Below are positions 1-5,140 of a stretch of DNA of 64,000 nt, piece by piece. Each line of letters begins with the position of its first letter. The first letter of the stretch is position 1. Location of the stretch: assembly GCA_003224085.1 (NCBI GenBank), contig QHYK01000046.1, positions 1 to 64,000 on the forward strand, given 5' to 3'. Position numbers and translations under genes: made by a program. The stretch comes from Acidobacteriota bacterium (GTDB taxonomy: Bacteria; Acidobacteriota; Terriglobia; Acidiferrales; UBA7541). Below the pieces are notes generated by a model that was given only the letters and a program-made list of their open reading frames with translations, was not told the DNA's origin and made no database searches.

Positions 1-1328
1 TTCGCCAATTCGCGCTCACCTTGGAGAACGTGAATGTCGATGCCTGTCTGGTTGTCCACGCCCGTGGTGTAAAGCTCCTGCGCGCTCGCTGGAATCGTCG
101 AATTGCGCGGAATGATTTTCGCCACGGCGCCGCCGTAGGTCTCGATCCCGAGCGAAAGCGGCGTCACGTCGAGCAGCAGCATGTTTTTCACGCCGCGATC
201 CAAAATATTCGCTTGCACTGCCGCGCCCAGCGCCACCACTTCATCGGGATTCAGTTCCGTGTGCGGCTTGCGGTCGAAATATTCCTGAACCATGCGCCGA
301 ATCAGCGGCGTGCGTGTGGCTCCGCCGACGAGAACCACTTCGTCCATGTCGCTGGGCTTGAGTTGTGCGTCGGCTAGCGCCTCTTTCACCGGGCCCATCG
401 TTCGGTCGACTACGGGACGAATCAACGCTTCCAGCGCGCCTCGCGTGAATTCGTGCGTGAAGACTGTGCCGTTGGGCAACGGGAAGCGCAGCATCGCCGT
501 CTCCGCTTCCGACAACTGATGCTTCATGTTGATAAGCGCTTTGCGCAGTTCCTGTGCCAGCTCTCCATGCGGCGAAAAATCGATCTCATCATGCTGAAGA
601 ATTTTCTCGTGAACAAAAGCTTGCAGCAGGTTGTCAATATCGTCTCCGCCTAGATGCGTGTCGCCGTTGGTCGAAAGCACTTGGTAAATGTCGCCTTCGC
701 TGGTGGAGATGAGCTTCAGCAGGGAAATGTCAAACGTACCGCCGCCTAGGTCGTAAACGGCCACGCGCCCGCGCTGCTTTTCATGCAGGCCATAAGCCAG
801 CGCCGCGGCCGTGGGCTCGTTCACAAGGCGCAGTACTTCAAGGCCAGCGATTTTGCCGGCATCTTTCGTGGCCTGTCGCTGCGCATCGTTGAAATACGCC
901 GGCACCGTAATGACCGCGCGGTCCACGGTTCCGCCAAAATAGGCTTCGGCCCAATTCTTCAACTCGCGCAGGATAAACGCGGAAATTTCCGGCGGCGTGA
1001 GAATCTTTTCTCCAAGCTTCACTCGAATCACGTTCCTGCTTGCCGGATCGATGCGGAACGGAAAGAGTTTGAGCTCGTCCTGAACGTCCGCTGGTCCGCG
1101 GCCCATCAACCGCTTCACCGAATAAATCGTGCGCTCGGGCTGCGTCAGCAACCGTCGCTTCGCCGGCTCGCCCACAATGAAGCTGCCATCGGCATCCATG
1201 CTTACGACCGAAGGGCACAGCGTCGATCCATAAGGACCCGGGATACACTTCGGCTGACCCGTCTGCGCGTCCGTGTACGCAACCAGGCTGTTCGTCGTCC
1301 CAAGGTCGATTCCTACAATCCTTCCCAT
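1..1328 (-). CDS. hscA: Hsp70-family chaperone HscA (3' part outside window)
   Basis: Reverse-strand reading frame that starts at ATG 1328 and is still open at base 1, so only about the first 442 residues are present. The start is a canonical Hsp70 ATPase domain: phosphate-loop motif GIDLGTTNS at residues 5-13, a [13 protein letters not shown] segment, [11 protein letters not shown], and [10 protein letters not shown]. The cut falls within the beginning of the substrate-binding domain, just after [11 protein letters not shown]. It lies 8 bp behind hscB, and the nearby IscU carries an LPPVK motif. This makes it the dedicated iron-sulfur chaperone HscA rather than DnaK. HscA uses ATP to drive cluster release from IscU. 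The symbol rests on context; the ATPase sequence alone would also fit DnaK. Confidence 0.9.
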
Positions 1329-1336
1329 GCTTTCGA

Positions 1337-2023
1337 TCAAACCTCCGCCAATTCCTTGGCCACATTCGTGACCAGATTCCGAATGTACGAGCGGCGATTC
1401 AGCAGTTCATTGAGCTTCGCCATAATTTTCTTCCGCGTCGCAGCGTCGCCAGTGAGAGCAGCATCCCACTGGCGCGCCGCCGATTGCAATTCGCCATCGA
1501 CTTCGTGAAGCTTCTCTTGAAAATTCTTCTCGGCAGCTTCGAGCCGCGCTTTCAATCCCGCCAAATCCTCCCCCGACGCTTTCGCTTCCCGCAATTCAAC
1601 CAGCGATTCGTTCAACTCGAAGACTTCTTCGAGCAATTCCGGCGGTGCCTGCTGTTTCTTCTCGCCCTCCTTGCGTTCGCCCTCGATGGCCAGCAAGTAC
1701 TCGACGCGCGCGAGGGGATCCCGCAACGTGCGATACGCGTCGTTCAACTCCGAGCTGCGCTTCAGCGAAAGCTCGCGCTCTTGTTCCGTCGCGTTCACAA
1801 AATTGTCCGGATGCAGCTTCCAGCTGAGCTGCAGGAACTTCTGCTCCAGCGCGCTCATTTCGATCCACAGCTGTCGCGGCATCTCAAACAAAGCGAAGTA
1901 GTCGATTCCTTTCGGCAATTGCAGCAGCTTCCCGCAACTCGAGCAGAAGTGCGTGCCGAGCGTGCGCTCGTGGCAATTCCAGCAGACCAGAGGCGCTTGT
2001 GCGGATGTCGGGACCGTGCTCAT
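1337..2023 (-). CDS. hscB: Fe-S co-chaperone HscB with N-terminal zinc-knuckle
   Basis: 228-residue J-protein partner of HscA. The J-domain HPD tripeptide is at residues 71-73 and the C-terminal helical IscU-binding region follows ([13 protein letters not shown]). Unusually for a bacterial HscB, the protein begins with two CxxC pairs (C14/C17 and C27/C30; CWNC then CSSC) before the J-domain. This matches the tetracysteine extension of human/mitochondrial HSC20, whereas E. coli HscB lacks it. The gene is separated from iscA by 135 bp containing a terminator-like hairpin, and from hscA by 8 bp. The function call is strong; metal binding by the knuckle is inferred from the cysteines. Confidence 0.93.
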
Positions 2024-2158: not shown

Positions 2159-2533
2159 CTACGCTGTAAAAGAGCTGCCGCAGCCGCAACTCCGCGCCGA
2201 GTTGGGATTCTGGAAAACAAATCCCTGGCGCATGAGCGTCTCTTCGTACTCCAGCGTCGTGCCGTTCAGATACAAAAAACTCTTCGCGTCCACGAAAATG
2301 CGTGCGCCAAATTCTTCGAAGATTTTGTCGCGGTCGCGCGGCTGGGTATCCAGGCGCATCGCGTAAGACAAACCGGAGCAGCCGCCGCCCTGCACGCCGA
2401 CGCGCAGCCCGCCAACTTCCGGCGACACACCTTCTTTTTCTAGCAGCGCCCGAATCATTTTCGCGGCGCGCTCAGTGAGGTGAATCGCGGCGACATTGGG
2501 GATCCCCCCATCTATTTTTGTGTAAGTGTTCAT
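2159..2533 (-). CDS. iscA: A-type iron-sulfur carrier IscA
   Basis: 124-residue A-type carrier (HesB/IscA/ErpA family) that accepts Fe-S clusters from IscU and passes them to apo-proteins. The three conserved ligands are present: C52 in GGGCSGLSY, and C116 and C118 in the C-terminal SCGCGSSF. Family proteins are normally 105-125 residues, so this is full length. It is the fifth gene of the isc cluster, 208 bp after iscU. ErpA is similar in sequence; the name IscA is chosen from operon position. Confidence 0.93.
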   Translation of the reverse strand: MNTYTKIDGGIPNVAAIHLTERAAKMIRALLEKEGVSPEVGGLRVGVQGGGCSGLSYAMRLDTQPRDRDKIFEEFGARIFVDAKSFLYLNGTTLEYEETLMRQGFVFQNPNSARSCGCGSSFTA

Positions 2534-2741
2534 TCTAAAGCACTTAGGCTTTCCTCTAAGCCGTTTAGGATCAACACTTACGCGGTCGCCTGCAAGCGTT
2601 CGCTCTCAAAGCAGTTATCACCTGTTCCGTCATGGCCCTCTACCCCAGGTCAGCTGGGGCGCCGCATGCTGGGATCCCACAAGGAGGGGCGCAGGCGTGG
2701 CGCCACCGGCGGGGACAGGCTACTTTAGTGCGAGCCCTTCC
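2534..2741 (-). other. iscU-iscA intergenic region with hairpins
   Basis: 208 bp without a credible gene. It holds a perfect 6-bp inverted repeat (CCCCAG/CTGGGG, 2643-2659, 5-nt loop) and a perfect 10-bp palindrome GTGGCGCCAC (2697-2706). The rest of the operon is packed to within 20 bp, so this looks like an inserted dispersed element or an RNA-processing or stabilising region. No T-run follows the hairpins on the minus strand, so a terminator is not supported. Confidence 0.5.
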
Positions 2742-3143
2742 CTACGGCCGGCACTTTTCGGCGCCGTGCTTCTTCTTCCAGTCGCCGATGGCGGCCTTGA
2801 TGGCGTCTTCCGCAAGCACGGAACAGTGGATTTTCACCGGCGGAAGGGACAGTTCGCGCACGATGTCCGTGTTCTTGATGGCCATGGCTTCATCTACGGT
2901 CTTGCCCTTCACCCATTCCGTGGCCAGCGAGGAGCTGGCGATGGCCGACCCGCAGCCGAAGGTCTTGAACTTGGCTTCTTCAATGACCTGCGTCTCCGGA
3001 TTGATTTTCATCTGCAGCTTCATCACGTCACCGCACTCGGGCGCCCCGACGAGGCCGGTCCCCACGTTGGGATCGTCCTTGGGGAGGCTGCCCACGTTGC
3101 GGGGATTGTTGTAGTGATCCACTACTTTGTCGCTGTATGCCAT
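2742..3143 (-). CDS. iscU: Iron-sulfur cluster scaffold IscU
   Basis: 133-residue U-type scaffold on which [2Fe-2S] and [4Fe-4S] clusters are built from IscS sulfur. The three ligand cysteines are present: C37 (APECGDV), C64 (FGCGSAI) and C107 (KIHCSVL). The HscA recognition motif LPPVK is at residues 100-104. The ATG shares one base with the stop codon of the upstream small gene (TAATG), implying translational coupling. Length and motifs match the Isc type, not SufU (no zinc-site insertion). Confidence 0.97.
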   Translation of the reverse strand: MAYSDKVVDHYNNPRNVGSLPKDDPNVGTGLVGAPECGDVMKLQMKINPETQVIEEAKFKTFGCGSAIASSSLATEWVKGKTVDEAMAIKNTDIVRELSLPPVKIHCSVLAEDAIKAAIGDWKKKHGAEKCRP

Positions 3144-3445
3144 TACCCGTTGCTCCTTGCGAGATTTGCGAGATTCACGAAACCCGCGCTCTTCACAGCC
3201 TTTTCCGAGAGCGTAACGTTCGGCACGGAAGCCGAGCGGCCCGCGGTCAGCTGGCGAAGAGCATCCTTAATATACTCCGCTCCGAGCCCGAGCATCTTCA
3301 GGAAAGCGCGCACTTGCTGGAGTTCGCGGAATGAGCGCTCACCCCCACTTTCCTCCTCTGCATCGTAGGGCACAAAAGCGACGCGGAAAGCGGCGCCGGT
3401 ACCTGCGATGGAGCGATGGATCCTAATTGTTCCCTCATTTGCCAT
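3143..3445 (-). CDS. Small conserved-looking protein between iscS and iscU, function unknown
   Basis: 100-residue ORF in the operon, 19 bp after iscS and overlapping the iscU start by one base (TAATG). No family was recognised. It has no signal peptide, no transmembrane segment and no cysteine, so it is not itself a cluster ligand protein. An N-terminal beta-rich stretch (TIRIHRSIAGTGAAFRVAFV) is followed by an acidic patch and a helical middle (RELQQVRAFLKMLGLGAEYIKDALRQL). The strict spacing argues that it is translated and made in proportion with IscU. A role as an Isc accessory protein is inference from position only. Confidence 0.75.
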   Translation of the reverse strand: MANEGTIRIHRSIAGTGAAFRVAFVPYDAEEESGGERSFRELQQVRAFLKMLGLGAEYIKDALRQLTAGRSASVPNVTLSEKAVKSAGFVNLANLARSNG

Positions 3446-3464
3446 TGTTTATTTCACAGCCCTT

Positions 3465-4685
3465 CTAGGCGGTTTGCCATTTCATTTTTGAGATGTCGAT
3501 TCCCTCTTTGGCCATTTCGTAGAGCGGCGAAAGTTCGCGGAGTTTGGTGACGACCTGCACCATCTTGTTGATGACATAGTCGACTTCCTCCTGCGTATTG
3601 AAACGGCCCAGTCCGAATCGAATCGAGGTGTGGGCGAGGTCTTCGCCTACACCTAAAGCTTTGAGCACGTAGCTGGGTTCGAGGGTTGCCGATGTACAGG
3701 CGGAACCGCTCGAGACGGCCACATCGTTGATGCCCATGAGCAGCGACTCACCTTCCACGTAGGCGAAGCTCATGTTCAAGTTGTTGGGCAGGCGATGTTC
3801 CATCGAACCGTTGACGTAAACTTCGTCCAGCTTCGCTTCCAGTCCGGCTTTCAGCCGGTCGCGCAGCGCCCGAAGCCGCGCGCTTTCCTCGGGCATCTCT
3901 TTCTGCGCGATTTCGCAGGCTTTGCCCAAACCCACGATGCCAGGCACGTTCAGAGTGCCGGAACGCATGCCGCGCTCGTGACCACCGCCGTCAATAATGG
4001 CCGAGAGTTGCACCCGCGGATTGCGGCGGCGCACGTACAGCGCACCGACGCCCTTGGGTCCATAAATCTTGTGGGCGCTGATGGCCAGCAGGTCGATGTT
4101 GTCCTTCTGGACGTCGACCGGAATCTTGCCCACGGCTTGCACGCCGTCCACAGCCAAGAAAATCCCGCGCTCCTTGGCAATCTTGCCGATTTCCGCGATG
4201 GGGTTAATCACGCCGATTTCATTGTTGGCGTACATAATGGTAATCAAAATCGTCGTCGGCTTGATGGCTGCTTTCAAATCGTCCAGGCTGACGCGCCCAT
4301 CGCGCTGCACGGGCAGGTAAGTCACCTCAAAGTCGTGCTTCTCAAGATTCTTGCAGGTATCGAGCACCGCCTTGTGCTCGATGGACTGCGTGATGATGTG
4401 ATTGCCCTTCTCGCGGTACATTTCCGCGACGCCCTTGATCATCAGGTTGTCGGATTCTGTGGCGCCGCTCGTGAAGACAATCTCCTTCGACGTGGCGTTA
4501 ATCAGCGAAGCCACCTGCTGCCGGGCGTTCTCCACCGCCTCTTCGGCGGTCCAGCCGAAGGAGTGGTTGCGGCTGGCAGCATTGCCGAACTTCCCGGTGA
4601 AATACGGCAGCATTGCTTCCAGCACCCGTGGATCGACTGGGGTGGTCGCGTGATTATCCAGATAAATCGGCAGTGTGACGGCCAT
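3465..4685 (-). CDS. iscS: Cysteine desulfurase IscS
   Basis: 406-residue PLP enzyme that converts cysteine to alanine and supplies persulfide sulfur for Fe-S assembly, tRNA thiolation and other pathways. It has the N-terminal [14 protein letters not shown] motif, the PLP-lysine motif [15 protein letters not shown] near residue 207, and the mobile catalytic cysteine in [18 protein letters not shown]. coli IscS has 404 residues and the same class I loop, so this is full length. The ATG is 14 bp after the iscR stop. Cofactor binding and activity should be normal. Confidence 0.97.
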
Positions 4686-4699
4686 GTTCCCTTTTCTCC

Positions 4700-5140
4700 C
4701 TAAGTTCTTAGTGCCACGAGCGAAGGCTCGTGCGGATCTTCACTACTCATCTGCGCAATGGTGACCGAACTCAACACATTTAGGATGCTTTCATTCACCC
4801 GGCGTAACGGTTCTTTTACCGAACAACGCTCGGTTGCGTCGCAATTCCCGTGGTTCGTCACACAGGAAGTAATCAAGACCGGCCCATCGATGGCGGAAAT
4901 AACCTCCAGCGCGCTGATCTGCGAGGGGTCTTTCGACAATTGGTAGCCCCCGCTCGAACCGTGTTTGGCCGCCACAATGGACTTGTGAGCCAGCTTCTGG
5001 AGCACCTTGGCCATCAGCGTTGCCGAGATGCCGTATTCTTCGGCAATCTCGTTGGCGCTAAAGGCATGGTCGCCACGATGCAGAGCCAGGTGTTTGACGG
5101 CAATCAACCCGTAATCGGCCTTCTTGGAAAGCTTGAACAT
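4700..5140 (-). CDS. iscR: Rrf2-family Fe-S sensing repressor IscR
   Basis: 146-residue Rrf2-family regulator with an N-terminal winged helix-turn-helix ([23 protein letters not shown]-contact region [18 protein letters not shown]; wing [10 protein letters not shown]). The cluster-binding cysteines are C93, C100 and C106 (CX6CX5C), close to the CX5CX5C of E. coli IscR. It is the first gene of the isc operon, as in proteobacteria, so it should repress its own operon when loaded with [2Fe-2S]. Two candidate operator sites and a promoter lie upstream (5171-5295), which supports autoregulation. Rrf2 relatives such as NsrR are alternatives, but the operon settles the call. Confidence 0.93.

Follow-up and report, generated by a model that had tools for sequence, protein, structure and literature searches.

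A gene encoding a protein of 100 residues, hereafter X, lies between iscS and iscU in the isc operon of an Acidobacteriota genome and of most genomes of its genus, and it is a genuine gene under purifying selection. Profile comparisons show that the domain of X is related to those of two other kinds of acidobacterial proteins, Y, whose gene follows a ribonucleotide reductase (RNR) gene, and Z, whose gene overlaps a HEPN-type gene. Our leading reading, to which we give somewhat less than even confidence, is that X, found in one family of soil Acidobacteria, serves the isc operon as a co-translated, single-domain accessory protein without catalytic activity, that it is related to a HEPN-partner domain and that it probably acts on IscS/IscU.

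The gene X and its operon

In the window (the whole stretch of 64,000 nucleotides that was analysed), the operon runs in the order rrf2-iscS-X-iscU-iscA-hscB-hscA on the minus strand, with the following features:

4700..5140, minus strand: Rrf2/IscR-type regulator (PF02082, 116.8 bits; TIGR02944, 116.4 bits, cut-off 110.65)
3465..4685, minus strand: iscS (NCBIfam PRK14012, 671.7 bits, cut-off 548)
3446..3464, minus strand: iscS-X spacer of 19 nt, from the ORF ends (15-61 nt among 31 loci of the genus)
3143..3445, minus strand: X, the 100-residue gene, from the ORF and its translation (ATG 3445-3443, TAA 3145-3143)
3141..3145, minus strand: TAATG, one-base overlap of the X stop and the iscU start, from the sequence
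2742..3143, minus strand: iscU (NCBIfam TIGR01999, 216.9 bits, cut-off 192.4)
2159..2533, minus strand: iscA-type A-type carrier (TIGR00049, 116.9 bits, cut-off 58.8)
1337..2023, minus strand: hscB with a Cys4 zinc-ribbon-like N-terminus (TIGR00714, 67.7 bits, cut-off 46.75; Cys pattern from the sequence)
3..1340, minus strand: hscA, incomplete, its ORF open at the window edge

The initial annotation had placed X and its two flanking genes correctly, as the sequence and the NCBIfam names of iscS and iscU confirm. Its tight spacing after iscS and its one-base overlap with iscU can both be read directly, as 19 nt and as a TAATG in which base 3143 is common to the TAA of X and the ATG of iscU (3143-3141). 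Its description of a small, cysteine-free and unnamed gene also holds: the window translation has 100 aa and zero cysteine, and X has no match in Pfam or NCBIfam at E<=1. Among the papers listed in searches of the open literature, none dealt with a gene between iscS and iscU or with PDC-M28, the PADLOC family name met below. By these searches, the isc operon is known, while the extra gene X and its domain family are unnamed.

Few bacterial operons have been studied as well as isc, and protein parts new to it are, to our knowledge, rare. The gene order in the window is that of the canonical operon (iscR-iscS-iscU-iscA-hscB-hscA-fdx), from which it differs by the one extra gene between iscS and iscU and by an Rrf2 regulator that scores best with TIGR02944 and not with IscR (76.4 bits with the IscR model TIGR02010, under its cut-off). 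Since the first base of the window is also base 1 of contig C126, hscA is cut off; what is left of it reaches 539 bits against a DnaK model and 529 against HscA. In a related locus, L034, a complete hscA homologue matches the HscA model best (699.8 bits, cut-off 620) and is followed by a ferredoxin gene whose best match, fdx_isc, scores 90.8 bits, below the cut-off of 132.1.

Two side observations concern the downstream part of the operon. The N-terminal Cys4 pattern of HscB (window 1337-2023, minus strand), which resembles a zinc ribbon, is not known from E. coli HscB. The iscU-iscA spacer (window 2534-2741) is long, and its length differs among relatives.

The reading frame of X is constrained. 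Among ten ortholog pairs of equal length, the X genes differ at 25, 14 and 251 sites in codon positions 1, 2 and 3, respectively, and the dN/dS of X is 0.000-0.148 (13 pairs), compared with 0.010-0.096 for IscU and 0.021-0.078 for IscS (14 pairs each; 15 pairs were listed, one of which was dropped by the filter, and in one the dS of X was undefined). The constraint on X is thus strong, though in most pairs somewhat looser than that on IscS and IscU. The initial annotation had raised the prospect of a random codon pattern that would mark X as a spurious ORF; what is found instead is the codon pattern of a selected gene. The coupling to iscU is also widely kept: 21 of the 31 genus loci have the TAATG overlap, and the remaining 10 have 16-142 nt between X and iscU, although for L003, which belongs to these 10, the iscU start is ambiguous.

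Distribution of X in isc operons

X is found in 32 of the 36 genomes of the window's genus, the window's own genome counted and one copy being cut by a contig end. It is present in all 24 genus genomes that are >=90% complete with <=5% contamination; the four in which it was not found (G002, G015, G025 and G028) are 63-85% complete. In each of the 31 genus loci read, X is placed between iscS and iscU, with iscS cut by a contig end in two. Among the named relatives, 16 of 17 are Acidobacteria, many of them of group 2 (gp2), and the same X-bearing operon is found in L038, which is named as a betaproteobacterium.

A diverged X (~32%, ~99 residues), which has one cysteine in this form, occupies the same slot in six of the seven isc operons of g26, another genus of the same family, with stop/start overlap in 5/5 measured loci; the isc operon L114 of this genus has no X. 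Across the class, 46 further loci were inspected, of which 45 were measurable (L131 has no iscS in range): five, all of g26, contain the diverged X, and the other 40 have no X-type match and go from iscS to iscU directly across 9-282 nt. Among four additional loci in the set used for the IscS+IscU tree, L192 (g26) is X-bearing and three are without X. The statement that most isc operons pass straight from iscS to iscU is therefore true in this class (40 of the 45 measurable loci and three of these four), and the possibility, also raised at the outset, that other isc operons hold no homologues of X is contradicted by the 31 loci of the genus and the six of g26. Because the 43 other iscS-iscU junctions of the class are without X, ISC can do without it.

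In the tree of IscS+IscU, the presence of X requires at least two changes, while the domain tree groups the isc-type X of both genera as one clade (97/93). Two independent gains in the isc slot are less favoured, as the domain tree unites both isc forms; a single origin followed by losses or transfer would fit these trees best.

Traces of X in its neighbours were sought by comparing proteins from genomes with and without X. With the criteria used, no IscU column tracks the presence of X. One IscS column does: in the tail, the conserved Trp is followed by a Gln in 33 of 33 family members with X and in 0 of 23 without, and the same Gln is also present in one X-less genome of another family. We take the IscS tail to be the end that reaches to IscU, and the Gln is a weak lead that represents two lineages at most. 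As a separate observation, IscS (window 3465-4685, minus strand) has A178 in place of H, A201 in place of S and four substitutions in the C-terminal stretch 374-381, all conserved in 90% or more of 28 genus rows and seen in none of the remaining rows of the family; A178 and A201 presumably lie near the PLP site.

Relatives of X and the HEPN-type genes

A first profile, A1, finds two proteins of ~195 residues, L065 (9.8e-14) and L067 (3.6e-6), which are matched via their C-terminal halves, and gives weak matches in G087 and G091 (E 0.004-0.005). A second profile, A2, which includes L065 and L067, finds Y in the window's own genome (7.3e-6); over 396 genomes of the phylum, the A2 search has matches in three, the window's own among them.

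G000:C109:37673-38005 (L143, 4671-5006), minus strand: Y, the own genome's other copy of the domain besides X, from the A2 profile search

A direct hhalign comparison of X with Y gives a probability of 89.9 and an E of 1.7e-6, the latter valid for this single comparison. Y is present in 8 of 121 class genomes, which are all eight of the window's genus sampled and no other, and in all eight genus loci read it is immediately downstream of, and on the same strand as, the RNR gene, which in the own genome matches the NCBIfam vitamin B12-dependent ribonucleotide reductase (1429 bits). Y has the same domain as X and differs from it by a longer N-terminus, its operon and its separate clade in the domain tree (100/99), where the Y branch measures 3 changes per column. 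A weak relative (E 2.6e-5) was also noticed in a distant acidobacterial family (L141 of G420), with a second similar-looking ORF close by.

The combined profile, A5, has members in 44 of 299 class genomes: 30 of the window's genus, 8 of g26 and 6 elsewhere. In the window's genus, 28 of the 30, all but G003 and G007, are matched at a place other than the isc locus. The g26 members comprise six of isc type and two lone genes, in G202 and G236, neither of which has a strong IscU match, and five of the six members elsewhere are Z proteins (L144, L145, L146, L181 and L200). Profile homology among X, Y and Z extends over ~93 positions of a ~95-residue domain. X aligns solely to the C-terminal half of Z, and the N-terminal domain of Z is absent from X. 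The question of whether the family always sits next to iscU has accordingly a divided answer: isc-type X does so in all 31 loci of the genus, and the same domain is found beside the B12-dependent RNR gene and in HEPN-linked proteins.

In those five Z loci, which belong to five families of the class, the Z gene and the HEPN-type gene upstream of it overlap. Six HEPN-type proteins were scanned, one from Deinococcus and the others acidobacterial, and each matches the PADLOC family PDC-M28A (E 5.1e-11 to 1.9e-6), and two Z proteins scanned with PADLOC have no match. With the Pfam HEPN models, one of four proteins is above the cut-off (4.6e-5), two are below it (0.0055 and 0.012) and one is unmatched. 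HEPN proteins are treated as toxins in at least part of the HEPN literature (PMC3710099), and by analogy the HEPN-type proteins found here may be toxins.

The N-terminal part of Z has relatives on plasmids. In the plasmid relatives L197 and L202, a HEPN-type gene overlaps a gene for a protein with the Z N-terminal domain, which occurs alone in an Acinetobacter johnsonii plasmid and fused to DUF3800 in Deinococcus, both times behind a HEPN-type gene. As judged from these sequences, the N-terminal domain of Z is the constant part across the plasmid relatives, and the X-type domain fills the variable C-terminal place in Acidobacteriota. Beyond Acidobacteriota, the searches comprised a seed-based scan as well as plasmid and viral records: no X match was found in plasmid records at E<=0.01, and the seed search found relatives of neither Z nor X in viral contigs.

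In the acidobacterial two-gene modules of a PDC-M28A protein and Z, the C-terminal ~95 residues of Z are the homologue of X. X differs from such a module by having no Z N-terminal domain and no adjacent HEPN gene and by its place inside an isc operon, where it adjoins iscS and iscU. Within the window's genus, decayed-looking HEPN-Z pieces are present in G023 and G022. In G153, the sixth of the A5 members outside the two genera, a decayed-looking pair (L201; G153:C477:9000-13500), possibly an assembly error, separates atpG from atpD in the ATP synthase operon and offers a precedent for HEPN-Z pairs within housekeeping operons. The likeliest history would lead from a HEPN-Z pair to X. This direction, capture of X from Z and not fusion of a lone domain into Z, is tentative, since the domain tree is unrooted, the Y branch is long and the tree program warns of long branches meeting.

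Searches for known families and folds gave no assignment. Among 15 A1 members compared with Pfam (E<=10), the best match is DUF1932 (0.054, in two), with no frataxin or IscX; among 17 members compared with NCBIfam, it is QhpG (0.0081, in one). Both sub-threshold matches are taken as chance. PDB sequence profiles gave no match with A1 and, with A5, matches at E>=0.54. The AlphaFold2 model of X, built from 12 close sequences, is predicted to be arranged as strand-strand-strand-helix-helix-strand-helix (pLDDT 76.3, pTM 0.71; the five models span pLDDT 76.3 to 48.8). A Foldseek search of PDB and BFVD with this model of pLDDT 76.3 returned nothing at E<=0.001, and VIA gave a best Z score of 4.9, to ribosomal proteins, and no convincing fold relative. 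Aligned with one another, X, Y and Z share just two glycines and a leucine as invariant columns; three further columns are nearly so, and no cysteine, acid/base or metal set is conserved. As no acid-base or metal set is conserved, the domain is probably a non-catalytic binding domain.

Possible roles of X

From its place in the operon, its overlap with iscU and the selection on it, we conclude that X is made together with IscS and IscU and that it matters. We propose that a HEPN-Z pair had come to lie in housekeeping operons, and that its partner- or target-binding domain was released there and retained as a co-translated subunit. The 19-nt gap and the stop/start overlap would keep the synthesis of X in step with that of IscS and IscU; X may then bind IscS, IscU or their complex, and the bound X may adjust cluster assembly or protect the IscS/IscU pair. 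Tuning of sulfur transfer, which the initial annotation had suggested along with iron entry, is one possible form of such an effect. Against the proposal, the pI of X is 9.7 in the window's genus and 4.8 in g26, a flip that shows its overall charge not to be conserved, and the two genera with X in their isc operons share no charge pattern that would hint at sulfur transfer or iron entry.

The main rival reading, possible if on balance unlikely, is that X is a domesticated remnant of a HEPN pair that still does the pair's job, for example by binding or neutralising HEPN proteins or by sensing an invader's product, and that the isc slot, like that of Y behind the RNR gene, only secures steady expression with an essential gene. 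The origin of the domain speaks for it, as X corresponds to the C-terminal half of Z, which in five loci is encoded by a gene overlapping a HEPN-type one, and all six HEPN-type proteins scanned match PDC-M28A, and so do the decayed-looking HEPN-Z pieces that the genus still holds, the unrelatedness of the RNR gene beside Y to isc, and the lone domain copies in the two g26 genomes without a strong IscU match. However, the part common to Z and the plasmid relatives is the N-terminal half, which X does not have, and X is selected for in a genome whose profile matches are X and Y, with no Z-type copy. In addition, two genera share both the slot of X and its stop/start overlap, which suggests that convenience of expression is not the whole reason, and the HEPN assignment is weak by Pfam, with one of four scanned proteins passing the cut-off.

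A more elaborate version, which we regard as improbable, is that a sensor or partner domain of a HEPN conflict module was domesticated as both X and Y. The two might then act as guards or regulators that link two essential metallo-systems to a defence-type circuit, in which HEPN-linked proteins with the same domain would sense when IscS/IscU or the reductase fails or is attacked.

Slightly less probable still is that X mainly serves as a translational coupling spacer, which sets the IscS:IscU ratio by stop/start reinitiation and in which the peptide is of little importance. The 19-nt gap, the TAATG and the retention of the overlap in 26 of 36 measured loci speak for such a device, but the protein sequence itself is constrained, as codon positions and dN/dS both show, the protein is kept in the 10 of 31 genus loci without the overlap, and relatives of the domain are found where it would have no such function.

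CyaY and IscX bind IscS, and X resembles these small accessory factors in its size and operon place: like them, it is small, non-catalytic and tied to IscS/IscU, in the case of X by gene order. That X replaces or imitates one of these regulators is nevertheless very unlikely, because the Pfam matches of X and of the 15 A1 members include neither family and because X is basic in the window's genus. Membership in either family is disfavoured: X has no PF01491 match and no Pfam match to IscX, and a separate CyaY is encoded away from the isc operon in the own genome (G000:C132:5240-5557) and is found in 27 of the 28 genus genomes examined, a co-existence that also disfavours frataxin mimicry. In g26, all seven genomes with a strong IscU match have CyaY, and the other 13 listed have neither. 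Finally, that X is a spurious ORF has a negligible probability, as the absence of a named family is the sole point in its favour and the orthologues with their constrained reading frame and codon pattern refute it.

With an extra protein fixed in its isc operon and a sister protein behind the RNR gene, this lineage lends itself to studying how essential machinery acquires accessory factors. The kinship with HEPN-linked proteins suggests a concrete route for such entry, the capture of a domain from a conflict module, which is testable by binding and growth assays. In these Acidobacteria, part of a defence-like gene pair may now belong to essential machinery.
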